A DNA stretch of 55,013 nucleotides from Planctomycetaceae bacterium (GTDB lineage Bacteria; Planctomycetota; Planctomycetia; Planctomycetales; Planctomycetaceae): assembly GCA_021732995.1 (NCBI GenBank), contig JAKFWA010000083.1:1-55013 (forward strand), in the 5' to 3' direction. A model generated the notes under the pieces. That model worked only from the letters and a program-made list of their open reading frames with translations, was not told the origin of the DNA and searched no databases. Below are positions 4,913 through 52,937 of this stretch, one piece after another (within the stretch, counting starts at the first letter, position 1; each line of letters begins with the position of its first letter). The translations under genes were made by a program, and so were the position numbers.

Positions 4913-4987
4913 GAGCCGGAACGCGCTAGTGTCCGGTTTCGAACGCCAATCGACTCTAAAACCGGACGCTAGCGCGTTCCGGCTGAT
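4913..4987. repeat. Long imperfect palindrome, same family as the one inside the kinase gene
   Basis: Two arms of about 26 bases face each other: the left arm contains GGAACGCGCTAGTGTCCGG (4918-4936) and the right arm the reverse complement of nearly the same sequence with one mismatch, ending at 4982. The loop is about 20 bases. It lies between the stop of the gene ending at 5009 and the start of the next gene, so it could act as a transcript-stabilising or attenuating hairpin. A closely related palindrome occurs at 17184-17262 inside a coding region, which marks it as a dispersed repeat family. Confidence 0.8.
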
Positions 4988-5008
4988 TTGGTCTGAGGCG
5001 AAGCCTCG

Positions 5009-6403
5009 CTAGGTTTCTCCTTCTTGCAGCGGCCAGCCAGTCCGCTGCGAGAACAGCGTGCCGAGCAGTCGCGGAATGTCGTCGTCGCCGTTTGTGGCGA
5101 AGTGCGGCGCTTCCAGCAGGAAGCCGGCGGTGTTTTCGAGCCGCAGTTGCCAGAGGAAATACGGCCGGTGCCCTCTGTCCTTGCGGCGGACCTTGGTGAG
5201 CTTCCAGCGGGCGTTGACGTATTCGCGCTCGGGCAGCCAGCCGAAATCGCGCGAGCGGACCAGGAGCAGGTTATGGTCCACGGTCCAGCGGGTTCGGTGA
5301 AAGCACGCCATGAGGCCCAAGCAGCACACGAGAGCACCGAGCATCAGCATCGGGATCATGATCAGCCAGTCAAAAGAATCAAACAGGGACTGCTGCTTCG
5401 CTCGCGCGTCGTTGATGAACGAGACCACGCTGTCCGTTGTCTTCCACAGCCAGACGATGCCGATCACCAACAGCATCAGACCGCCGATGATCTGGTCTGT
5501 CTTGGGCGGGCTGATCGTCAGTCGGTGCTGTTCGTCGAAGTCGGCGACGAAGTGGTGCGAACGGAGCGCAGCGAGCAGTTCGTCCTCGTGGCTTTCGGAC
5601 GGAGGCTTCCAGCCCCCCTCGATGGCGATGCCCGACTGCGACACATTCCAGCCGGTATGTTCCGCCAGCAGATTCGCGATCGCGGTCGCTTCGGCCTGCC
5701 TGTCGTGGGCCGCCTGGAAACCGACGCGGATGTCCGGCTTGTGGAGCAGGTAATGCTTCTGGCCGTCGCAGACGACCGCCAGCCGCCACATTCGCCCTCG
5801 ATCCGTTGCGAGATGCGGTTCGACCACCAATTCGCCGCCGTGCAGCTTGAGGCTGCGAAGACGGCCCCGAACTCCGCGCCGCACGATCAGCGTGTCGCGG
5901 GAACCTTCCCATTCTTCACGCCACAACGCGAGCCTGAGTATCTGCCAGAGAATCCCCGCGAAGAACAACCCGATCAGGCCGACAATCATCAGCGGAATGA
6001 ACAGCGCCACTACTTGCATTCCCCACGCCGGTATCGCGGCCCAAATCCAGTTGCGGTACCACCACAGCCCGATCAGGATGGGCGTCGAGTAGAACAATGC
6101 CATCATGCACGAGCAGCCAATCGCTCCCCTGCGCCACAACGCGCTCCGCCGCAATCGCACGCCACCTTCGTCAGTCGGTTCAACGAGCCAGCCATGATCC
6201 GTCAGCGAGAACGCCGGCTTCTCGGCGAGGGCGGCGTCCATCATTGAGGTCGGACTGGCTTCAAGCTGATCGACGAACGCCTTCGCTTCGGCCAACCCCA
6301 CACCGGTCGCCTCGCGGTACATTCGAATGGCGTCGAGCTTGCGTCCGGCACTCAAGGCGGTGCGAATGCTCGCAGCCGTTTCATCAGGAAGCGGATTGGG
6401 CAT
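5009..6403 (-). CDS. Membrane protein with L7/L12-like N-terminal helix domain
   Basis: A 464-residue protein. Residues about 10-45 (IRTALSAGRKLDAIRMYREA, then GVGLAEAKAFVDQLEA) match the L7/L12 C-terminal-domain-like motif that bacteria append to unrelated membrane proteins. A hydrophobic block with several transmembrane helices follows (FYSTPILIGLWWYR; VALFIPLMIVGLIGLFFAGIL), then two beta-rich domains separated by a second helix pair. The whole core after residue 60 is paralogous to the gene at 10486-11904, which carries a different N-terminal domain. ATG 6403 is preferred over a GTG at 6418. Function unknown; a membrane-anchored envelope or regulatory role is only a guess. Confidence 0.7.
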   Translation of the reverse strand: MPNPLPDETAASIRTALSAGRKLDAIRMYREATGVGLAEAKAFVDQLEASPTSMMDAALAEKPAFSLTDHGWLVEPTDEGGVRLRRSALWRRGAIGCSCMMALFYSTPILIGLWWYRNWIWAAIPAWGMQVVALFIPLMIVGLIGLFFAGILWQILRLALWREEWEGSRDTLIVRRGVRGRLRSLKLHGGELVVEPHLATDRGRMWRLAVVCDGQKHYLLHKPDIRVGFQAAHDRQAEATAIANLLAEHTGWNVSQSGIAIEGGWKPPSESHEDELLAALRSHHFVADFDEQHRLTISPPKTDQIIGGLMLLVIGIVWLWKTTDSVVSFINDARAKQQSLFDSFDWLIMIPMLMLGALVCCLGLMACFHRTRWTVDHNLLLVRSRDFGWLPEREYVNARWKLTKVRRKDRGHRPYFLWQLRLENTAGFLLEAPHFATNGDDDIPRLLGTLFSQRTGWPLQEGET

Positions 6404-27761: not shown

Positions 27762-30700
27762 TTAGTTGACCACTTCCGCTGAGTATCGGTCTCTCAATTT
27801 GTCATTGGCGGTGCCAAAGTTGAAGAGCCAGTCTCGATCGCCGCCCGAGTAGACTTCGTCACTGAAGCCATCGTCTTGAACTGTACTGGCAGCGGGCAAG
27901 GTGCCGGCGTTCAAGGTGAAGCCGTCGCTTTGTCCGAGACCTTGGCGAATGTTGGAGACTCGCGTTTCGTAGCTGTTACCAGACGTCCATTCGGCCAGGA
28001 TCGCTGCCAAGGCTGTGACGTTGTTATCATGGGAAGTCGTTCCCCCGATCATGATGTCTTCGCCACCCTCGCCGAACAGGTAATCGTTGCCGATACCAGC
28101 GATCAGAATATCCCGGTCAGCGCCACCGAAGAGCGAATCGTTACCAGTGCTACCCAGCAGGATGTCGTGGCCTGATTCACCGAAGAGCTGATCGTCGCCT
28201 GCTTCTCCATACAGGCGATCGAGTCCATCGCGGCCGAAGAGGTAGTCGTTACCGTCGCCGCCATAAAGTTGATCGTTGCCCGAGCCGCTGTAGAGGGTGT
28301 CGTTACCCTCACTGCCGCGGAGTTCCGTGGGTTTACCGAGTAACGGATCGACATGGATCAGGTCGTTGCCCCCGAATCCGTTGGACACGATCCGGCTGAT
28401 CTGGCCATGGTCGAAGATACCGACGACGACGTAATTCAGTTTGACGAGGATCTGCTGACCGTAGAGTCTCGATTCGATGAAGATCGTGTCATTGGCAATC
28501 GTTCCGTTCGCTACCAGCACCTTCTGGCCTGGGTTTTCCGGATCATTGACCAGCCCCACGAACCCTGGCGCTCCTGAGAAGCCATCATCATTGAGGACCC
28601 TACCCACGCCTTGATTGTCAGCAATCGTGGCGTTAACCGCAGTGGCTAGGTTGATGAAGAACGTCTCGTTGGCCTCACTCACCGAATCACCGTTTACCGC
28701 GACGGTGACAATCTTCTGGGTCTCGCCCGGAGCAAACGTCAGTGTGGTCGGTGGCAGAGCGACATAATCGGAGGGCGTGTTGGCCGTTCCGTTAGAGGAG
28801 CTCACCACAACCGTGACTGGCTGCGCACTGACTGCTGACAGCGTGACCGTGAACACGGCATTCGTCGTACCGACGTTGCCTTCCGCTACCGAGATATCGT
28901 TGATCGACAACGTCGGAAGTGGTGGCGGTGGGGAATCGTCATCAGTGATGACAACGGTGTCTCGCTGCGTGCCGAGTTCCGTGGCATTTGTCACGCCGGT
29001 GATGTCAACGACGATAGTCTCGTTGGGATCGACCACTGTGTCCTGTGCGGCGGTCAACGTGGCCGCACCTGTCAGGCTGCCAGCGAGAATCACGATCTGC
29101 GTTCCCGACCGGGTATAGTCTACCACGTTCGTCGCGGTCCCAGTGTAAGCCAGATCGACGATGACGTTCTGGTTTGAGATGTTGGACAACGTCGCCTTGA
29201 CCGTTGTTGTACCCGCTGCTTCGGTGATGGCCGTCGGAGCAATTGAGAGGGTGACCGTCGGAGGTGCATCGTCATCAATGATGGTGACGGTGTCTTGCTG
29301 GGTACCCGACTCAGTGCCGTTGGTCACACCAACGATGTGGACAATCACGGTTTCATTGGCTTCGTCCATTGTGTCTTGCAACGCGGTCAATGTCGCTGTG
29401 CCGGTAGTGTTACCAGCCAAGATCACGATCTGAGTGCCCGAGCGAACGTAGTCAGCAGCGTTCGTGGCGGTGCCTGTATAGGCCAGGTCAACGATGACAT
29501 TCTGACCTGATACGGCAGACAACTTAGCCGTGATGGTGGTTGTTCCGGCCGCTTCAGCGATAGTCGTTGGAACGATCGCCAGAGTGACCGTGGGCGTCGC
29601 ATCATCATCCGTGATGGTGATCGTATCTCGCTGCGTTCCGAATTCGGCACCGTTGGTCACGGACGCGATGTCGACAACGACGGTCTCATTCGTTTCGTCC
29701 AAAGTGTCCTGCACCGCAGTCAACGTGGCCGTGCCACTGGTGCTACCGGCAAGAATCACGATCTGCATACCCGACCGAACATAGTCACTGACATTTGTCG
29801 CGGTACCAGTGTAAGCCAGATCCACAACAACATTTTGAGCAGAGACTGATGACAGTGTTGCCGTGATACTGGTGGTGCCAGCTGCTTCCGCAATCGTCGT
29901 CGGAACGATCGAGAGAGTCACCGTCGGGCCGGAATCGTCGTCAACGATGGTCACCGTATCTTGCTGTATCCCTGACTCGGCGGCATTCGTGACCCCCACG
30001 ATATCGACAATGACCGTTTCATTGACCTCGTCCATCGCATCTTGGACGGTAGTGATCGTCGCCGTTCCAGTGGTACTACCAGCCGGAATCAGGATCTGCG
30101 TACTTGAACGAACATAGTCACTGACGTTCGTCGCAGTGCCACTATAAGCCAGGTCAACGATGACGTTCTGACCCGAGACGGCTGACAAGGTCGCCGTAAC
30201 CGTGGTTGTACCCCCAGCTTCGCTGATGGTCGTTGGCGCGATGGCCAATGTGACGGTGGGAGTAGCATCGTCGTCGGTGATGGTCACAGTGTCTTGCTGT
30301 GTGCCCAGCTCAGTGCCGTTCGTCACGTTGATGATGTCGACAATGATCGTTTCATTGGCTTCATCTCGGGCGTCTTGCACGGCTGTAATCGTGGCTGTGC
30401 CAGTCGTACTACCGGCCAGAATCACGATCTGTGTGCCTGAGCGAACATAGTCGCTGACATTCGTCGCTGTGCCGTTGTAAGCCAAATCGACAATGACGTT
30501 CTGTGCTGAGATCGCAGACAGTCTGGCAGTGATATTGGTCGTCCCGGCGGCTTCCGCGATGGTCGTCGGAGCGATGGCCAGAGTGACGGTCGGAGCAGCA
30601 TCGTCATCGGTGATGCTGACCGTATCTTGCTGCGTGCCGAACTCGGTGCCATTCGTCACCCCGCTAATGTCAACAATGATAGTTTCGTTAGCTTCATCCA

Positions 30701-33362
30701 GAGTATCTTGCACCGCAGTCACTGTGGCAGTGCCGGTCAGGCTGCCAGCCGGAATCAAGATCTGGGTAGCCGATCGGGCATAGTCGACGGAATTACTGGC
30801 AGTACCGCTGTAGGCGAGAGCCACGATGACGGGTTGGCTGGAAATGGTGGATAACGTGGCGGTTATTGTGGCTGTCCCTGCCGCTTCGGCAATGGTCGTA
30901 GGCACAATGGCCAATCTCACGCTGGGACCTGCATCGTCGTCGGTGATCGTGACGGTGTCTCGCTGCGTGCCCAGCTCGCTGCCGTTCGTCACCGTACTGA
31001 TGTCGACAATGATCGACTCGTTGGTCTCAATCTGTGCGTCTTGAACTGCGGTCAAAGTGACCGTGCCACTGATGTTGCCAGCCAAGATGACGATTTGCGC
31101 GCCCGAGCGAATGTAGTCTGTGACGTTCGTCGCGGTGCCACTGTAGGCCAGATCAACAATGACGTTCTGGCCGGAGATGGCCGACAACGTCGCAGTCACC
31201 GTGGAGGTACCGGCAGCTTCGGCGATGCTCGATGGAGCGATCGCCAGTGTGACATTCGGAATCGGCATCGAAGGCTGAATCTGTGCGGGCGCTGAGAACT
31301 CTGACGTATTGTTCTGAGACGGAGTTGTCGAGTCCGCAACGATAGTATCCAAGGTCACTGCGCCTGATCGTGCCAAGGCTCGACCACTCGACAAGCTCGC
31401 GCCCGTTGCCAGAGTGATGCTCGCTTCCGCCAGAATGTTGCCGACGAATGCTGTGCCAACGCCAATCGTTGCGGAACTGCCGACTTGCCAGAAGATTCTG
31501 TCAGACGGGCCGCCGACCACGACGACTGCCGAACCGACTCCGGCAGCAGTCGTAAGCGTGCTGCCGATCTGAAACACAAAGAGCGCATGGGGATCACCTT
31601 GAGTGTCCAGAATCAGCGGAATTGGACCCGTTAGTTGCGCTGACGTGTTGAAGTGATAGACGCCTGGTATCAGCGTCAGCCCACCCAAGTCCTGACCGGT
31701 CAGGTCAATAAACGGCATCATGCTCGCGAGCGAGTCGAAGGCCGTCGTGAGGTCTACTTGGGCCTGAGCAGCTACTGCATCGGCGATATGAATCTCACCC
31801 GTAGTCACGAACGCGCCTGCAACCACACTGCCAGGCGAGACGCCAACATCTCCGACGAGGACGGTTGGACCGGTGATCGTCGCCGTTGAGCCAGCTAAGA
31901 CCGCGAAGGCTGCCGCAGAACCTAAGATACTTTCGGCTCCCGAAGCCACCGCACCTGTCGATGATCCGTCTGAAGTCGCAGTCGCTGTGACGAACTGTCC
32001 GTTTGGTACCGAGCTTGCCAAGGTTGCGATGAAACTGACACGGCCCGTGTTGTCAGTCGTCACGTCCGTGAAACCAAGAAAGGTCTGCCCCTCGCCGAAA
32101 CCGGTTCCGCTGACTGTGGGGTTGGAGAAGAATTCAATCCGATATGTCGTGTTAGTATTGCTGTCGAGCGAACCCACAATCGTCGTGCTGACGAGGTCGC
32201 TGGTGGCCGAAATCAGCACGGGGAAATTCGGCAGCAGGTTAGGACCATTATCGCCGTCTCCCATGTCGTTAGCGGTCACATCATCATCTGTCGGATAGGA
32301 AGTTGTACCAACGAGATCGATACCCAGCAGCGTCGTCGGGCTGTTGAGTCCGTTATGGAAGATCGAATTACCAAGAACGGTGTTTCCAGTGTTCTGGCGA
32401 GTCGCCAATGGATTTCCAAAGACTGCCACGCCCGCGAGTCCGTTGTTGGCGATCGTATTTCCAGCCCCAGTAGCAATGCCGCCGATCTCGTTGTTCTGTA
32501 CTCCGAGTCCACCGTCTCCTTGCAGCACAATGCCGTGCAGTCTGTTTCCGACCGAGGTCGCTCCATCGGCGCCAACGCCGATGAAGTTCCCTTGAATGAC
32601 GTTGTTCTGAGAACCAGTATTGAGATTGATACCATCGGAGTTTCCGCCGATCACATTCCGATCCGCAGGAGTTAGGCCGCCGATCACATTGCGGAAGCTG
32701 CCATCAATCGCGATTCCGATGGTGCCGGTGGTACTCGCTCCAACATTGCCAGTGGCGCCTGTGCCGATGAAGTTACCACTGATTGTGTTGCCGTCCGACC
32801 GCACCAGGATTCCTGCGCCGCTAAAGCGATTGATCACAAGGCCGCTGACGCTGGAACCGCCAGACCCTACGCCCAGGACCAAGCCGCCCGCATTCAGTCC
32901 AGCGCCGATGCCATTCAACTCGATCCGCAGCACGGCGTCGTCACCGTTGACGAGCGTGTTAGGACTGGTTCCCGGTTGGCTATAGCCGTTTATCGTTAGT
33001 GGCTTGACTATGGTTGGCAGCGGTAACGAAGGTGAAATCGTGCTGGTGCCTGCGATGTTGAACCTGATAGTATCATTCGTGCCGTATACCCCGACTGAAG
33101 TCACATCAGCGTTGAAGTTTGCGCCATTATTGACCGATGTAATCGCTTCTCGCAGCGTCACGACGCCATCCACGGCAAGGGAATCTCCAGTACCCGTCAC
33201 CACGATCGCTGATAGGACAAGTCGATCTTCCAAGCCCTCCCCGAAACCTTTACGGAAGCAAGAACGCTGAACACGGCGGATTAGTTTCCGTGACGTGATT
33301 CGCGTCCGAGTGCCAGAGGAAAACCAACTTCGAAGACCATCCAACCAACCACTAGTAACCAT
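27762..33362 (-). CDS. Giant secreted protein: beta-helix, ice-binding-like domain, Calx-beta and RTX repeats
   Basis: An 1866-residue extracellular or surface protein. Residues about 40-50 carry the planctomycete exoprotein signature GLEDRLVLSA. Next comes a CSLREA-like right-handed beta-helix region (GVVTLREAITSVNNG, many N-x-I-x-G-N repeats) to about 400. A DUF3494/ice-binding-protein-like domain occupies about 483-675 (FAVLAGSTATITGPTVLVGD, GVYHFNTSAQLTG). Seven near-identical 111-residue Calx-beta-like repeats span about 704-1480, each with IAEAAGT, NETIIVDI and DTVTITDDD, plus one divergent canonical Calx-beta. The C-terminus has RTX nonapeptides (GGDGNDYLFG), which bind calcium. The role is probably adhesion or matrix. 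Confidence 0.9.
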   Translation of the reverse strand: MVTSGWLDGLRSWFSSGTRTRITSRKLIRRVQRSCFRKGFGEGLEDRLVLSAIVVTGTGDSLAVDGVVTLREAITSVNNGANFNADVTSVGVYGTNDTIRFNIAGTSTISPSLPLPTIVKPLTINGYSQPGTSPNTLVNGDDAVLRIELNGIGAGLNAGGLVLGVGSGGSSVSGLVINRFSGAGILVRSDGNTISGNFIGTGATGNVGASTTGTIGIAIDGSFRNVIGGLTPADRNVIGGNSDGINLNTGSQNNVIQGNFIGVGADGATSVGNRLHGIVLQGDGGLGVQNNEIGGIATGAGNTIANNGLAGVAVFGNPLATRQNTGNTVLGNSIFHNGLNSPTTLLGIDLVGTTSYPTDDDVTANDMGDGDNGPNLLPNFPVLISATSDLVSTTIVGSLDSNTNTTYRIEFFSNPTVSGTGFGEGQTFLGFTDVTTDNTGRVSFIATLASSVPNGQFVTATATSDGSSTGAVASGAESILGSAAAFAVLAGSTATITGPTVLVGDVGVSPGSVVAGAFVTTGEIHIADAVAAQAQVDLTTAFDSLASMMPFIDLTGQDLGGLTLIPGVYHFNTSAQLTGPIPLILDTQGDPHALFVFQIGSTLTTAAGVGSAVVVVGGPSDRIFWQVGSSATIGVGTAFVGNILAEASITLATGASLSSGRALARSGAVTLDTIVADSTTPSQNNTSEFSAPAQIQPSMPIPNVTLAIAPSSIAEAAGTSTVTATLSAISGQNVIVDLAYSGTATNVTDYIRSGAQIVILAGNISGTVTLTAVQDAQIETNESIIVDISTVTNGSELGTQRDTVTITDDDAGPSVRLAIVPTTIAEAAGTATITATLSTISSQPVIVALAYSGTASNSVDYARSATQILIPAGSLTGTATVTAVQDTLDEANETIIVDISGVTNGTEFGTQQDTVSITDDDAAPTVTLAIAPTTIAEAAGTTNITARLSAISAQNVIVDLAYNGTATNVSDYVRSGTQIVILAGSTTGTATITAVQDARDEANETIIVDIINVTNGTELGTQQDTVTITDDDATPTVTLAIAPTTISEAGGTTTVTATLSAVSGQNVIVDLAYSGTATNVSDYVRSSTQILIPAGSTTGTATITTVQDAMDEVNETVIVDIVGVTNAAESGIQQDTVTIVDDDSGPTVTLSIVPTTIAEAAGTTSITATLSSVSAQNVVVDLAYTGTATNVSDYVRSGMQIVILAGSTSGTATLTAVQDTLDETNETVVVDIASVTNGAEFGTQRDTITITDDDATPTVTLAIVPTTIAEAAGTTTITAKLSAVSGQNVIVDLAYTGTATNAADYVRSGTQIVILAGNTTGTATLTALQDTMDEANETVIVHIVGVTNGTESGTQQDTVTIIDDDAPPTVTLSIAPTAITEAAGTTTVKATLSNISNQNVIVDLAYTGTATNVVDYTRSGTQIVILAGSLTGAATLTAAQDTVVDPNETIVVDITGVTNATELGTQRDTVVITDDDSPPPPLPTLSINDISVAEGNVGTTNAVFTVTLSAVSAQPVTVVVSSSNGTANTPSDYVALPPTTLTFAPGETQKIVTVAVNGDSVSEANETFFINLATAVNATIADNQGVGRVLNDDGFSGAPGFVGLVNDPENPGQKVLVANGTIANDTIFIESRLYGQQILVKLNYVVVGIFDHGQISRIVSNGFGGNDLIHVDPLLGKPTELRGSEGNDTLYSGSGNDQLYGGDGNDYLFGRDGLDRLYGEAGDDQLFGESGHDILLGSTGNDSLFGGADRDILIAGIGNDYLFGEGGEDIMIGGTTSHDNNVTALAAILAEWTSGNSYETRVSNIRQGLGQSDGFTLNAGTLPAASTVQDDGFSDEVYSGGDRDWLFNFGTANDKLRDRYSAEVVN
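28920..31255 (-). repeat. Seven tandem 333-bp coding repeats in the giant exoprotein
   Basis: Seven head-to-tail units of about 333 bases, each encoding one Calx-beta-like domain. Neighbouring units differ mostly at synonymous or conservative positions, for example VTLAIAPTTIAEAAGTT versus VTLSIVPTTIAEAAGTT. This pattern points to recent unequal crossing-over or gene conversion, and makes the stretch a likely site of copy-number change and of assembly collapse. Confidence 0.88.
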
Positions 33363-33850
33363 GGGAGCACAATTTCTTTGGGTCCATTAACAACTTGCAA
33401 GTTGAGCCGACGAGAATCGGCGACAGGCCACTGTTCACTGGCCAATCGGATCCTTAATCCATGCGTTAGCACGTGACCGGAGACTCAATGCCAGCGCTTC
33501 ACCATCCTTGCGTGACGGGTGCGAGGCTCGGCAATCGCACAAACTTTCGCTGTATTGAGGGCATGTTGAGCACAAGCGACCCTGTAAATAATTACGTCGC
33601 GTTCCTACGCCTGATCGATCTGACCGACTTGCGAAGTGTATTAATGGCAAACGGCTGCCTTGGTGCGACTTTGGCGGTGTCTACTTTGCCAAACTAGCAG
33701 TATCACGATTTCCTGAAGGCTGCTGCGACACGGCGCACAAAATGGGCCATCGCCAGGAACACTCTCGCCTCAACGATGACACCCGCCGTTCAATGCAAAC
33801 GGAGAGGTCCATGCAAAATCCGCCAGAAGAATTGCGTTATCACAAGCTAT
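33363..33850. other. Non-coding gap between the giant exoprotein and the structured RNA
   Basis: About 490 bases, relatively AT-rich around 33540-33660. It must contain the promoter of the exoprotein gene. No gene, known RNA or clear promoter motif was recognised. Confidence 0.4.
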
Positions 33851-33953
33851 AAAAAAAGCCGACGTAGCGACATCCTCAGGGGATACCGCCACGTCGGCTT
33901 ACTCGTTATCGCGCCATCCGGAACTTACCGAACTGCGCTCTATTTAGTCGTCC
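33851..33953 (-). ncRNA. Structured RNA with intrinsic terminator, copy A
   Basis: Minus-strand RNA of about 103 nt. The 5' box is GGACGACTAAATAGA. A hairpin follows with lower stem GCGC/GCGC (33935-33938 with 33911-33914), a small internal loop and upper stem UUCGG/CCGGA. Then come the unpaired box ACGAGTAAGCCGACGT, a terminator stem of 11 pairs with one G-U (33888-33898 with 33858-33868) enclosing a second stem, and seven U. Copy B at 52655-52757 has the same length and order with compensating stem changes. No gene begins directly downstream (the next start is 490 bases away), so this copy may be a stand-alone small RNA. Confidence 0.7.
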
Positions 33954-34172
33954 GAAGTGGACCAAGTCATCGGCTTGAGTCGCCCACCGGGCATTTTGAA
34001 ACTCACGACAACAGGATCTTCAACACTTGTAGGGAAACGCATTTCAAATGCAATGAACTTAGTCGTTGCTTTCGAGAGTTTTCTCAAGGTATTGCCAAGT
34101 ATTTGACAGTAGGAGCAACCCTTTCCGCAGGTCGAACTGAAACTCCTGTCTGCATCTCAACGATGCCACTCT
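33954..34172. other. AT-rich non-coding stretch upstream of RNA copy A
   Basis: About 220 bases, expected to hold the promoter for the minus-strand RNA. I saw no clear homology with the corresponding stretch beside RNA copy B and no gene. Confidence 0.35.
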
Positions 34173-48745: not shown

Positions 48746-49819
48746 CTACTCAAACGAGATCAGCGGCTTGATCATCCCGTCCTCTTTGGTCTGCATCATC
48801 CTGAACGCCTTCTCGATGTCCTTGAATGGGAACCGGTGTGTGGTCAGCGCGAGTGGATCGACGCGCCCCGTCTCGATGAGGCGCAGCAGGCGGCCCATTC
48901 TCTCTGAGCCGCCGGGGCACAATGCCGTTCGGATCGTCTTGTCGCTCATGCCCACGCCCCAGGCTTCGCGCGGGATCGGTACACTGTCACCGTCTCCGTG
49001 GTAGCCGATGTTGGAGATTGTTCCGCCCGGTCGAGTCGCGCTCACGCACGCGGCAAATGTCTTCGCCGAGCCAAGAGCCTCGATCGCTGAATCTACGCCT
49101 TTGCCCTCCGTGAGCTTGAGGATCGCTTCGACGGGGTCTTCTTTCGTGTAGTCCACGATCACGTCGCAGCCATACTTCTTCGCCAGGGCGATGCGGTTGG
49201 GCATGGTTTCAATCCCGATGACCAGCCCAGCACCACGAAGGCGAGCGCCGACGGTTGCCATCATTCCGACAGGCCCTTGCGAGAAGATCGCGACACTGCC
49301 GCCGATCGGAATATTTGCGAACTCGGCGGCGACGAATCCAGTCGAGAGCATGTCACAACAATACGCGGCCTGCTCGTCGGTGAGACCGTCAGGTATGGGC
49401 GCAAGGTTGGCCACGGCGTTGTTGACGTGGAAGTACTCGGCGAAGCTGCCATCCTTGAGATTGGCGAACTTCCACCCACCGAGCATCCCGCCGCACTGGC
49501 TCGGATAGCCGCGCTGGCAATTGTCGCAGGCATAGCACGGCGTGATGGCGTTGACAGCCACACGCTGCCCGATCCTGAACAGACCGCTGGCGGCCGCGAG
49601 TTCGCCCAACTCATGAATCACGCCAACGGCTTCGTGTCCGAGCGTCAGGCCGTGGCGGTCGCCGATCGCACCGGCCACAGTGTGGGTATCTGAAGTGCAA
49701 ATCAGCGCGGCGGTCGTGCGGATGATGGCATCGCTCGGTCCCGGACGTGGGACGGGCTTCTCCATCACACCGACCTTGCCGATACCGTGCATCACGAAAC
49801 ACTTCATCATCTCAGGCAT
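48746..49819 (-). CDS. Zinc-dependent medium-chain alcohol dehydrogenase
   Basis: A 357-residue cytoplasmic MDR enzyme resembling the secondary-alcohol dehydrogenases of Thermoanaerobacter. The catalytic zinc segment is ICTSDTHTV and GHEAVG. A cluster CYACDNCQRGYPSQC could bind the structural zinc, which the Thermoanaerobacter type lacks. The nucleotide fold contains VAIFSQGPVGMMATVGA, and the C-terminal part PGGTISNIGYHG and GMIKPLISF. Its ATG lies inside the end of the preceding ATPase gene (8-base overlap), a sign of coupled translation. Methionines at codons 4 and 5 are other possible starts. The physiological alcohol and its link with the metal genes are unknown. Confidence 0.88.
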   Translation of the reverse strand: MPEMMKCFVMHGIGKVGVMEKPVPRPGPSDAIIRTTAALICTSDTHTVAGAIGDRHGLTLGHEAVGVIHELGELAAASGLFRIGQRVAVNAITPCYACDNCQRGYPSQCGGMLGGWKFANLKDGSFAEYFHVNNAVANLAPIPDGLTDEQAAYCCDMLSTGFVAAEFANIPIGGSVAIFSQGPVGMMATVGARLRGAGLVIGIETMPNRIALAKKYGCDVIVDYTKEDPVEAILKLTEGKGVDSAIEALGSAKTFAACVSATRPGGTISNIGYHGDGDSVPIPREAWGVGMSDKTIRTALCPGGSERMGRLLRLIETGRVDPLALTTHRFPFKDIEKAFRMMQTKEDGMIKPLISFE

Positions 49820-52613
49820 GGGAGGTTCCTGGTTTTCGGATTGCGACTCGCTGGATCACCTTGACCAACTCCACGACGACCACGGGCATCAGCGAACAGG
49901 CTGCGATCACTCCCCAGTCCGACAACGTGGGCGGGACGGTGTGCAGCACTTTCTGCAAGAGCGGCACATAGACCGCTGCGGCTTGGAGGATCAAACAAAT
50001 CCCCACGGCCGCCCAGAGCCAGCCGTTCGTAAACAGTCGGCTGGTGAACGCCGAGCGTTTCTGTGAACGCGCATTGAAGGCGTGGAAGACTTGGGCCAAA
50101 GCCAGCGTCATGAACGCCATCGTGGTTGCTTGGCGCAAGCCTTCGCCTTCGGTGCCGTGCCAGTGCATGCCGACTCCAAAGGCGAGGAGTGTGACCCCGG
50201 AGAGCAGCATTCCCTGCCAGACAATCAGGCCGACGAAATGGAGGGTGAGCAGCGACTCTTGCGGATCGCGCGGCGCGCGTTTCATCACGTCCGGTGCCGA
50301 CGGCTCCAGCGCCAAAGCAAAGGCGGGGAAGATGTCGGTAATCAAGTTGAGCCACAAAATCTGGAGGGCCACCAACGGCAGAGGCCAGCCAATCATGAGG
50401 GCCAGAAACACGGTGAGGATTTCTGAAAAGTTGCACGAGAGCAGGTAATGGAGGAACCGGAGAATGTTCCCGTAAATGATCCGCCCCTGCTCGACGGCCC
50501 CGACGATGCTGGCGAAGTTGTCGTCGGTAATCACCATGTCGGCGTTTTCCTTGGCGACCTCGGTCCCCTTGATACCCATCGCGATTCCGATGTCCGCCTT
50601 CTTCATGGCCGGGGCGTCGTTCACCCCGTCGCCCGTCATGGCGACAACGTGCCCCTGCTGTTGCAATGCCTCGACGATCTGCAATTTGTGCTCAGGCGAG
50701 ACGCGGGCGAACACGGCGGCGGCGGCCACCGCCCGTTTCCAACCCTCAGTGTCCAGGCCGGTCAGCTCGCGACCGTGGACGGTGCGTAACGGACGCCCAT
50801 TCGGATCGATGTCGATTCCCAATTGGCGCGCAATCTCGGCGGCCGTCGGCTGCTGGTCGCCGGTGATCATCACGGTTCGAATACCCGCCTCGCGACAAGT
50901 GGTGATGGCGGCCTTTGCTTCGTCGCGAAGCGGGTCGCTCATGCCGACCAAGCCGACGAAGGTCAACTCCCGGTCGAAGTCGGCTTCGGTGTAGCCCTCC
51001 GACAGTTCACGATACGCCAAGCCGAGAACACGCAGCGCCGCACCGGCCAACTCTTCGTTCGCCTCTTCCCAGCGCCGGCGATCCGCTTCCGTGAGCGGCG
51101 TCACTCCGGTGGCTCGCACCTGAGCGCTGCTCGCCGCGATCAACGTCGCAGGCGCACCTTTGACGAACGCCAGCGTCGGACCTTGCGACGCGCGATGCAC
51201 CGTGACCATGCGCTTGCTGGTACTGTCGAACGGCACCTCGCTGAGACGCGTAAAGTCGGGGGCCAAGGCGGCTTGGTTCATCCCGGCCTTTTCCGCCACG
51301 ACGATCAAGGCCGCTTCGGTGGGGTCGCCCAGTACGGTTTCATGGCCGTCGGTGCGTTCCACTTTGGCATCGTTGCACAACATGCCGATGCGCAGGGCCA
51401 GAGCGAGCTGCTCATCGGAGAGCGGGTCCACGGGCTTGTCGCCGTCCTGAAACTTGCCCACCGGCTCGTATCCCGCGCCGGTCACTTCGATGCGGCGTTG
51501 ATCCAACATAAAGACGCACGCGGTCATCTCGTTCTTGGTCAGTGTCCCGGTCTTGTCGGTGCAGATGACGGTGGTGGACCCCAAGGTCTCGACCGCAGGA
51601 AGCCGGCGGACGAGCGCACGCATCCGAGCCATGCGTTGCATTCCCAACGCCAGCGTCATGGTGGCCACGGCGGGCAATCCCTCAGGGACTGCGGCAATGG
51701 CCAGGGAGAGGCCGATCTCCAGCATGTGCCAGAAATCGGTGACGCCGCGCAACCAGCCCGCCAGAACGATGACGGCGCACAGCGCCAACACGAGCACAAT
51801 GAGCAGACGACCGAGCCGAGCCAGCTTTTGTTCCAGTGGAGTGGCACGAGTCGTCGCCTCATCAATCAGGATGCCGATCTTGCCGACTTCCGTTTGCACG
51901 CCGGTGGCCGTCACCAGCAACCGGCCGCGCCCGTCCGTGATTGTTGTCCCCAGGAAAGCCATGTTGAGACGGTCACCAAGTGCCGCATCCTTGTCGGTAA
52001 GCGGATCGGCGATCTTGGTGACCGCGTGAGATTCACCCGTCAGCGCCGCTTCTTCAATTTGCAATCGCACGCACTCGACGATGCGACCGTCGGCGGGCAC
52101 TCGCGCCCCGGCGGCCAGAACGATCAGATCGCCCGGAACCAACTCGACTGCCGGAATCTCGCTCTGCGCGCCATCGCGGATCACATGAGCGACCCGCACC
52201 GCCTGCTTTTGCAGAGCAGACAATGCCTGCGCCGCCTTCCATTCGGTGAAGAAGCCGATGCCGGCGTTGATTACGATGACAACCAGGATCGCGATCGCCT
52301 CGAGGTTTTCGCCCATGGCAAAAGCAATCACCGTGGCCGCGACCAGCAGCGCCACGATGAGGCTCTGAAACTGAGCCACAAAGATGGACAAAGTCGAACG
52401 CTGGTGCGCCTGAGCCAAAGCATTGGGACCAAACCTAGCGAGTCTCCGGGCCGCTTCGGCCTGAGCCAGACCCTGCGTGACATCGGACAGTTGCCGCTCG
52501 ATGGCCTCGGCCACCGAAAGCATGTGCCACGCTTCCGTCTGCGGCGGAGAGTCAGATTCGTCATTCGACCTCGTGCGTTCTGAACGAATCTTCGTCATCA
52601 CGTCCGTTAACAC
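49812..52613 (-). CDS. P2-type cation-transporting ATPase (Ca2+/Mn2+ ATPase-like)
   Basis: A 933-residue inner-membrane pump. It has an N-terminal cation-ATPase domain (LSVAEAIERQLSDVTQGLAQ, FGPNALAQ), the actuator loop ALTGESHAV, membrane motif PEGLPAVATMTLALGM, phosphorylation site D353 in CTDKTGTLTKNEM, hinge MTGDGVNDAPAMKKADIGIA, and a C-terminal bundle of six helices. These motifs place it with bacterial Ca2+/Mn2+-type pumps; the ion is not settled. I prefer the GTG at 52613 because GGGAGGAAGG (52623-52632) precedes it by nine bases; ATG 52598 is the alternative. First gene of the minus-strand set, directly after the terminator of the structured RNA. Confidence 0.88.
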   Translation of the reverse strand: MLTDVMTKIRSERTRSNDESDSPPQTEAWHMLSVAEAIERQLSDVTQGLAQAEAARRLARFGPNALAQAHQRSTLSIFVAQFQSLIVALLVAATVIAFAMGENLEAIAILVVIVINAGIGFFTEWKAAQALSALQKQAVRVAHVIRDGAQSEIPAVELVPGDLIVLAAGARVPADGRIVECVRLQIEEAALTGESHAVTKIADPLTDKDAALGDRLNMAFLGTTITDGRGRLLVTATGVQTEVGKIGILIDEATTRATPLEQKLARLGRLLIVLVLALCAVIVLAGWLRGVTDFWHMLEIGLSLAIAAVPEGLPAVATMTLALGMQRMARMRALVRRLPAVETLGSTTVICTDKTGTLTKNEMTACVFMLDQRRIEVTGAGYEPVGKFQDGDKPVDPLSDEQLALALRIGMLCNDAKVERTDGHETVLGDPTEAALIVVAEKAGMNQAALAPDFTRLSEVPFDSTSKRMVTVHRASQGPTLAFVKGAPATLIAASSAQVRATGVTPLTEADRRRWEEANEELAGAALRVLGLAYRELSEGYTEADFDRELTFVGLVGMSDPLRDEAKAAITTCREAGIRTVMITGDQQPTAAEIARQLGIDIDPNGRPLRTVHGRELTGLDTEGWKRAVAAAAVFARVSPEHKLQIVEALQQQGHVVAMTGDGVNDAPAMKKADIGIAMGIKGTEVAKENADMVITDDNFASIVGAVEQGRIIYGNILRFLHYLLSCNFSEILTVFLALMIGWPLPLVALQILWLNLITDIFPAFALALEPSAPDVMKRAPRDPQESLLTLHFVGLIVWQGMLLSGVTLLAFGVGMHWHGTEGEGLRQATTMAFMTLALAQVFHAFNARSQKRSAFTSRLFTNGWLWAAVGICLILQAAAVYVPLLQKVLHTVPPTLSDWGVIAACSLMPVVVVELVKVIQRVAIRKPGTSHA

Positions 52614-52654
52614 AATCGATTCCTTCCTCCCATGACTACTAGCTCTACGAAACA

Positions 52655-52703
52655 AAAAAGCCGACGTAGCCTTACCTCTGTTGGAGGTTCGGCTACGTCG
52701 GCT
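52655..52703 (-). terminator. Rho-independent terminator of RNA copy B
   Basis: GCCGACGTAGCC pairs without mismatch with GGCTACGTCGGC on the minus strand, and the stem is followed immediately by TTTTTT. In reading order it ends just before the ATPase ribosome binding site, so transcription of the downstream operon from the same promoter would have to read through it. Confidence 0.85.
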
Positions 52704-52757
52704 TACTCGTAAACGAGCCCACTGGCACAGCCAGCTTGCTCTTTAGTTAGTCATCCG
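52655..52757 (-). ncRNA. Structured RNA with intrinsic terminator, copy B (leader of the ATPase/ars genes)
   Basis: Minus-strand RNA of 103 nt. The 5' box is GGATGACTAACTAAA. A hairpin follows with lower stem GAGC/GCUC (52739-52742 with 52716-52719) and upper stem CUGGC/GCCAG (52731-52735 with 52723-52727). Then come the box ACGAGTAAGCCGACGT, a perfect 12-pair stem (52692-52703 with 52661-52672) enclosing an ACCUC/GAGGU stem, and six U at 52655-52660. Compared with copy A, paired positions change together while the boxes stay constant. The U-run ends 23 bases before the Shine-Dalgarno of the ATPase gene, the position expected for a terminating leader. Confidence 0.72.
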
Positions 52758-52937
52758 GCAAATTTGATGAATCTTGGGCCAAGCCGCGGTTCCAAGGCGA
52801 AACTGGGCTCCCACGACTCCGGTCATACCATGTTTCCAGCCAGTAAGCGACGACCAGCCGACCAATTGAGAATCAATTCTGAACAAATGTTGTTGTCCGG
52901 TGTTAGGTTGTCGGCAAAGCTGAGATTTCAAAGACGG
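52758..52937. other. Upstream region of RNA copy B
   Basis: About 180 bases expected to contain the promoter of the leader RNA and operon. No gene or clear promoter box was recognised. It ends at the fifth IS110 left end. Confidence 0.35.

Follow-up and report, generated by a model that had tools for sequence, protein, structure and literature searches.

Two related elements in the window

The window, that is the whole stretch of 55,013 nt of planctomycete DNA that was analysed, carries two related elements on its minus strand, each upstream of a gene read in the same direction (Table 1). They share one layout: a 5' box, a central hairpin, a 3' box and an intrinsic terminator, the 5' arm of which starts within the 3' box. 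The initial annotation had described two 103-nt elements at 33851-33953 and 52655-52757 (minus strand), and these positions and the boxes it named are borne out. The paired changes that it read in the stems are also present, with GCGC/GCGC in one copy against GAGC/GCUC in the other and UUCGG/CCGGA against CUGGC/GCCAG. The conserved 5' box likewise exists, but by the family alignment it begins one or two bases earlier than had been thought. Compared with dinucleotide shuffles, the folds of the two copies have z scores of -4.81 (copy 1) and -8.01 (copy 2), and none of 200 shuffles equalled either.

Table 1. Features of the two RNA elements and their downstream genes (window coordinates)
Feature	Position	Strand	Remarks
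RNA copy 1	33851..33955	-	Covariance-model hit 33844-33958; recovered at E 4.1e-15 by model R3, built from other copies only
5' box UCGGACGACU, copy 1	33946..33955	-	UCGG and CCGA (terminator 5' arm) can form switch helix P1a; ACU/AGU forms P1b
Central hairpin P2/P3, copy 1	33911..33938	-	GCGC/GCGC then UUCGG/CCGGA; from fold and covariation
3' box AGUAAGCC, copy 1	33896..33903	-	Last five bases double as the start of the terminator 5' arm
Intrinsic terminator, copy 1	33851..33900	-	Stem-loop and U-run 33851-33857
Downstream gene of copy 1	27762..33362	-	1866-aa Calx-beta / Ice_binding / RTX-repeat surface protein; 482-nt gap
RNA copy 2	52655..52758	-	Covariance-model hit 52646-52761; recovered by R3 at E 3.0e-14
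5' box CCGGAUGACU, copy 2	52749..52758	-	
3' box AGUAAGCC, copy 2	52700..52707	-	
Intrinsic terminator, copy 2	52654..52704	-	Stem-loop and U-run 52654-52659
Downstream gene of copy 2	49812..52613	-	P-type cation-transporting ATPase; 33 nt past the model hit with the chosen, approximate start

Copies and distribution of the RNA

A pattern search of the genome from which the window comes, with inspection, gave seven further full copies. A covariance model built from nine copies of this genome (R1) finds 10 there above 86 bits, six of them on a single contig, C2, between 216 and 245 kb. These 10 copies, together with the covariation described below, show that the two-copy pattern is not chance. 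Nine of 40 related genomes matched R1 at E<=0.001, the window's own counted, and the sole same-genus genome searched had no match at that threshold. An exact-pattern scan of named genome contigs returned at least 119 loci, nearly all in records titled Planctomycetota (Planctomycetia and Phycisphaerae included), and at least 201 distinct copies from that phylum were collected. Twelve of the 119 listed pattern loci come from non-planctomycetes and are attributed to chance (L102, L110, L112, L124, L132, L152, L153, L163, L164, L171, L196 and L213); the first ten have no R1 match at E<=0.001, and the last two no match to model R2 at E<=1e-6. Our impression is that several loci titled Candidatus Kuenenia stuttgartiensis (L098, L114 and others) resemble those of other planctomycetes, and the titles may be unreliable.

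The distribution is patchy. R2 matched 18 of 392 planctomycete genomes at E<=1e-6, scattered over ten families, and R3, a model built from distant copies alone (those of Bacillota and of distant planctomycetes), matched 21 of the 392 at E<=1e-4. Because R3 recovers both window copies with strong scores (Table 1), the canonical and distant sets are one family. In Bacillota R3 matched 33 of 348 genomes; three of these 33 (G489, G533 and G649) gave no locus and were left out of the examination. In a third phylum, that of G422 (record titled Chthonomonas), matches were weaker than in Bacillota (7 of 121 genomes, best E 5e-8). The phylum of G425, the genome of L171 (record titled Burkholderia anthina), gave R3 matches at E<=0.001 in three of 120 genomes, the best at 8e-5; none of these three loci has a gene of the DUF2294 family discussed below, and they are regarded as background. 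Opposite-strand matches, which arise from the palindromic terminator, were removed by hand ahead of counting. The RNA family is real, with copies in Planctomycetota, Bacillota and, more weakly, the third phylum.

Nothing in Rfam 15 corresponds to it: there was no match for the whole window at the gathering score, for 401 bases round copy 1 at E<=5 or for 16 further loci at E<=1. Twenty Bacillota loci searched at E<=0.1 gave nine matches: c-di-AMP riboswitches, tRNAs, a T-box and a single weak Plastid-ycf2. None of the nine overlaps a hit of R2 or R3. The initial annotation had proposed a structured RNA family without a name, marked by conserved boxes, stems that covary and an intrinsic terminator; 118 aligned copies and these negative searches support it. 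The covariance-model search of planctomycete genomes that it had suggested found further covarying copies, so the possibility that there were none is excluded. It had missed the potential switch between box and terminator arm, the DUF2294 partner gene and the occurrence of the RNA outside the planctomycetes.

Conserved structure

In the alignment of 118 canonical copies (A7), both bases change in 30 of 36 pairs, pairing holds in 92.4% of cells (35-44% once the partners are slid), and the covariation score is 0.420 against 0.035-0.078; the 36 rows of a distant set (A10) score 0.465 against 0.061-0.126 when slid, and both alignments were fitted to a structure and are therefore biased toward it. 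Among the 118 copies the loop that caps the central hairpin is constant neither in length nor in sequence (A7 columns 36-64). A further, variable hairpin often lies upstream of the 5' box, at about -45 to -5, and its minimum free energy falls under the shuffle mean in 79 of 119 copies. By eye, the stem of this upstream hairpin seems to covary between the related loci L155 and L136. Two other readings were considered. A short reading frame in the box (AUG-ACU-...-UAA) is not general, because the U of its AUG is only 56% conserved, and a putative GGA site of the CsrA type was dropped.

The RNA as a probable leader and its planctomycete targets

The gene downstream of the RNA is co-directional in 62 of 74 scorable copies, at a median gap of about 70 nt; 121 copies were scored with gene calls from a simple script, of which 44 were set aside as overlapping a called ORF and three had no downstream gene. 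Ten same-strand tandem pairs with gaps of <300 nt occur among the 201 copies, and in six of these the gap is 1-11 nt, which leaves little room for separate promoters. TANNNT motifs resembling a -10 element peak at two distances upstream of the box, 53-55 nt (23 of 119 copies) and 67-70 nt (22 of 119), against 5 at each for TANNNA. A special promoter was rejected as the conserved feature, there being only -10-like signals at scattered distances. The element is most likely a leader or intercistronic attenuator that ends in a terminator, rather than a lone small RNA.

The genes behind the RNA in planctomycetes are a mixture of signalling, stress and surface genes with no clear CO2 theme. Pfam, run on 87 downstream proteins, gave MpsC 13 times, HisKA eight, Response_reg seven, BON five and P-type ATPase three, among others, and the 25 families listed in an NCBIfam tally were generic two-component names. 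The surface protein of copy 1 has a relative, L076:3535-9747, behind a tandem RNA pair on C2 (90% identical over 1166 columns). A nitric-oxide-reductase gene (NorB/COX1) stands behind the C51 copy at L079:10098-12389 (+), and an RNA-rich cluster of the window's genome includes a SulP transporter fused to a carbonic anhydrase domain (L077:7413-9650, +).

A possible switch between box and terminator

In canonical copies the UCGG of the 5' box is the complement of CCGA in the terminator's 5' arm, and the same four letters recur within its 3' arm. All 118 canonical copies have CCG in the 5' arm, and these invariant bases give no proof by covariation; the other terminator pairs covary. The first distant test of P1a and of helix P1b used 55 of 71 rows. 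P1b (ACU/AGU) was paired in 88.5% of cells in 39 distant rows against 74.8% in shuffles, with none of 5000 as high, and a conserved AnG/AAG stretch sits between the two helices. In that first set of 39 rows P1a was weak beyond GG/CC: for columns 3, 4, 5 and 8 taken together, 90 of 5000 shuffles were as high, and for column 5 alone 2578 of 5000.

The signal is clearer in 37 hand-picked copies from Bacillota and the third phylum (31 of the 48 rows of alignment A11 plus six of eight third-phylum copies). Here columns 3, 4, 5 and 8 pair in 65.3% of cells against 53.4% in shuffles that ignore the relatedness of the rows, and none of 10,000 was as high. Column 4 takes the forms UA, CG, GC, UG and AU, and matched sets such as GUUGGU/ACCAAC, GCAGG/CCUGC, GGUGG/CCACC and GUUGAC/GUCAAC are found. 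The omitted rows were six near-identical or duplicate ones, five on the opposite strand and six weak forward ones (L342, L343, L313, L308, L301 and L337:994). Restoring these last six, so that all forward rows were kept (43 copies), gave the same result (63.2% against 51.7%; 0 of 10,000), as did removal of the training genomes (28 copies; 66.7% against 53.6%; 0 of 10,000). In the 43-copy set column 4 carries most of the signal and column 8 some, columns 3 and 5 alone being not significant, and some rows (e.g. L326 and L328) have the extension without pairing. With its 5' arm taken up by the 5' box the terminator could not form; these comparisons support an attenuator switch of this kind without proving it.

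A probable DUF2294/MpsC partner protein

Two subfamilies of DUF2294/MpsC protein recur at the RNA loci. One, which we call the TGH type, is encoded behind the RNA (39 RNA-gene pairs); the other, our MGRGP type, lies beside it, no more than 1.2 kb upstream, divergently in 47 pairs and on the same strand in 14. A partner of copies in the window's genome (L077:19201-19587) matches PF10057, MpsC (DUF2294), at 127.1 bits against a cut-off of 23. AlphaFold predicts the structure of the DUF2294 protein with confidence (pLDDT 91.6), but no solved fold in the PDB matches the model at E<=0.001; the best solved sequence has an E of 0.1. In three loci the domain is fused to a receiver, Response_reg and MpsC being the only Pfam domains: L076:10908-11795 (-), L082:9819-10691 (-) and L240:9589-10446 (+). 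The fusion on C2 has on one side an RNA-led PAS kinase (of the CheB/CheR type, judging from its sequence and the Pfam tally) and on the other a tandem RNA pair. Similar proteins can be recognized by sequence in L087 and L127.

The MGRGP gene lies within 700 nt upstream in only 58 of 180 main-set copies (those with >=700 nt of upstream sequence), and the association is better seen between genomes. An alignment of 44 MGRGP proteins (A8) was used to search the 392 planctomycete genomes, two matches of 41.8 and 38.4 bits (G252 and G315) being excluded as not of this type. The protein is present in 15 of the 18 genomes with the RNA by R2 and in 16 of the 374 without it (Fisher test, 5e-16, with relatedness ignored); when R3 defines the RNA-positive genomes the figures are 17 of 21 against 14 of 371. 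Three of the 18 lack the protein (G069, G236 and G363). In 12 of the 16 RNA-negative genomes with the gene, R2 hits lie beside it at a best E<=0.0045 (in 11 downstream of the gene and on its strand, in one only divergently), so some of these genomes hold divergent RNAs; at the other four loci (L272, L275, L277 and L278) there is not even a weak R2 hit beside the gene.

In Bacillota a DUF2294 protein was found in 21 of 149 genomes; of 27 loci searched with R2, 12 have the RNA at E<0.001. When the search started from the RNA alone, with R3, a DUF2294 gene lay no farther than 1.5 kb from 29 of 33 fetched copies; outside the training genomes the figure is 18 of 21 by a hand count, seven of the 18 loci being close relatives. 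Nine of the 21 DUF2294-bearing genomes are among the R3 matches, and two (G419 and G440) were sampled and have no RNA match; not all of the remaining 12 are certain to be in the R3 sample. The A8 and R3 searches are not independent, since the genes of A8 were chosen for adjoining an RNA and the RNAs of R3 for adjoining such a gene. In 12 of the 33 Bacillota copies the DUF2294 frame ends 1-4 nt before the RNA, and in these the gene is therefore upstream of the switch rather than its target; it stands behind the RNA in L326, L327, L333-L335 and L337. In the third phylum it is beside three of eight copies. Genome comparison thus shows the RNA to be linked to one DUF2294/MpsC subfamily (motif MGRGP), often as a gene other than the one behind the RNA. 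The contig of the window has no DUF2294 match at E<=1e-8, and its two leaders would therefore be controlled from C2 (gene 245443-245814).

Bacillota targets and a candidate signal

For 38 of 39 Bacillota copies a gene behind the RNA could be identified, and 23 of these 38 first genes were run through Pfam. Twelve of the 23 encode an Sbt_1 bicarbonate transporter (four), an AIRC protein (PurE or PurE-like, four), PEP carboxylase (PEPcase_2, three) or GTP-PEPCK (one). The others are DASS-type (two), NuoL/Mrp-type, DUF4914, solute-binding, Na/Ca exchanger, MFS and acetyltransferase proteins (one each) and three of no family. The 15 first genes outside the Pfam run are six relatives of a 141-aa protein of L314, a DUF4914 look-alike (L322), six DUF2294 genes and two short frames. 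A biotin carboxylase is the second gene in L326. Inorganic carbon is proposed as the Bacillota signal because of these carboxylation and bicarbonate genes, and CO2 or bicarbonate may be what is sensed, a weaker inference than that of a protein-controlled switch.

Seven related Bacillota loci (L314, L318-L321, L323 and L324) have the RNA followed by a 141-aa protein of no family and a DUF4914-like gene (Pfam was run on one of each, the DUF4914 from L318). c-di-AMP riboswitches lie near Bacillota DUF2294 genes at L300:2001-2135, L301:2006-2139, and L302:1043-1185 and 2537-2677. Downstream of four third-phylum copies (L347, L349, L350 and L351) there are, by eye, KdpA-like genes, which fit potassium as well.

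Proposed mechanism and alternatives

We favour, with moderate confidence, a transcription attenuator in which a DUF2294 protein serves as RNA-binding antiterminator in trans and, in Bacillota, inorganic carbon may be the signal. By default the upstream hairpin would not be stabilized, so that the terminator would form and RNA polymerase stop. The DUF2294 protein, either free or as the output domain of a response regulator, would bind the boxes and hold P1a/P1b, blocking the terminator and letting transcription run into the target. It would act in this way on copies across the genome. In Bacillota the cue might be CO2 or bicarbonate, and in planctomycetes the same switch would drive the mixed set of signalling, stress and surface genes. 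A bolder and more tentative version is that DUF2294/MpsC is a new RNA-binding antiterminator domain acting in trans, at times as a two-component output, which in Bacillota reads CO2 or bicarbonate and sets bicarbonate import and carboxylating enzymes, the system extending over at least three phyla.

A riboswitch is an alternative that we think rather unlikely. The RNA itself would bind a small ligand, bicarbonate/CO2 or another metabolite, that stabilizes P1a/P1b, and DUF2294 would be a mere frequent neighbour or co-regulated gene. The overlap of box and terminator arm is as in ON riboswitches, the unpaired boxes and the AnG/AAG stretch between P1a and P1b are conserved, the 10 tandem pairs would suit it, several unrelated CO2/HCO3- genes stand behind the Bacillota RNA, and the six loci with DUF2294 behind the RNA are explained equally well. 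The partner gene, however, is often not behind the RNA at all, as in the 47 divergent pairs and the 12 of 33 Bacillota copies that directly follow its frame; the receiver-MpsC fusions suit a regulator, and no metabolite is common to the planctomycete targets.

Somewhat less probable again is a protein-dependent attenuator that answers to an ion, membrane-potential or cyclic-nucleotide state (K+, Na+ or c-di-AMP) instead of inorganic carbon. The KdpA-like genes of the third phylum, the Na+/Ca2+ exchanger, DASS and P-type ATPase targets, and the c-di-AMP riboswitches near DUF2294 in L300-L302 would agree with such a signal, but K+ or Na+ alone would not readily account for Sbt_1, the PurE-like proteins, PEP carboxylase and biotin carboxylase.

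The free-standing RNA of about 100 nt pictured by the initial annotation finds no support. A small RNA of some 100-160 nt with targets in trans, read-through being incidental, could account for the terminator with its long U-run, the -10-like signal upstream and the many copies per genome; it is very improbable given the co-directional downstream genes (62 of 74), the six tandem pairs separated by 1-11 nt, the copies directly 3' of a DUF2294 frame and the covariation of the box with the terminator arm. That the element is a mobile-element end, or an integron-like or dispersed repeat with a terminator-like hairpin, is scarcely credible: its spread is patchy (18 of 392 genomes), its copies are clustered and the one same-genus genome searched has none, but compensatory changes throughout, orientation to the next gene and copies in other phyla all speak against it.

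Comparison with known systems

Attenuation controlled by a protein or a ligand is a known kind of regulation; as far as our searches reach, the RNA, the partner and the regulon are new. In ANTAR systems (AmiR/NasR) the output domain of a response regulator acts on a leader hairpin that overlaps an intrinsic terminator, and the target RNA consists of two hairpins with conserved hexanucleotide loops. The receiver-MpsC fusions that share clusters with RNA copies recall this arrangement. The output domain here is DUF2294/MpsC, however, most DUF2294 proteins found are single-domain, and the RNA lacks such paired hexaloop hairpins, its apical loop and upstream hairpin being variable. The RAT hairpin of BglG/LicT systems overlaps the 5' half of a terminator and the regulator gene adjoins the leader. 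An overlap of hairpin and terminator and a neighbouring gene for a putative regulator are seen here too, but the element differs in sequence and length, DUF2294 takes the place of CAT-RBD/PRD, and a single genome has many copies before unlinked genes. In ON-type transcription riboswitches, such as the pbuE adenine riboswitch, the 3' strand of P1 is common to the terminator 5' arm. Our RNA resembles them in sharing a strand with the terminator 5' arm and in its tandem copies, and departs from them in having no Rfam match, no known ligand and a link to one protein family.

In the Pfam naming PF10057 bears the name of MpsC, and mpsC sits in a bicarbonate-uptake operon of Staphylococcus (PMC6689103). 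According to the accessible part of that study, MpsAB is a bicarbonate transporter in staphylococci, mpsC is dispensable for growth, a weak terminator lies between mpsB and mpsC, and expression of mpsA is lower at 5% CO2; the same part of its text has no occurrence of the terms riboswitch, leader or DUF2294. Among the open (non-subscription) papers searched, none was found that describes this RNA or gives DUF2294 a part in regulation, and no RNA-based sensor of CO2 or bicarbonate came up; the sole mention of DUF2294/PF10057 found there is in a fungal secretome study.

PF10057, a family of unknown function, gains a testable role and a link to a structured RNA. Should the proposed mechanism prove true, it would bring a new pair of RNA switch and regulator to the few transcription attenuators known to be under protein control, and give a handle on CO2/bicarbonate sensing in non-autotrophic bacteria. 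In the bolder version, control of inorganic carbon at the RNA level would be found in at least three phyla.

One locus, L253, has tandem RNA pairs at 1419-1667 and 4968-5215, the members of each standing 10-11 nt apart; in two of the four copies UUGG/CCAA replaces UCGG/CCGA.
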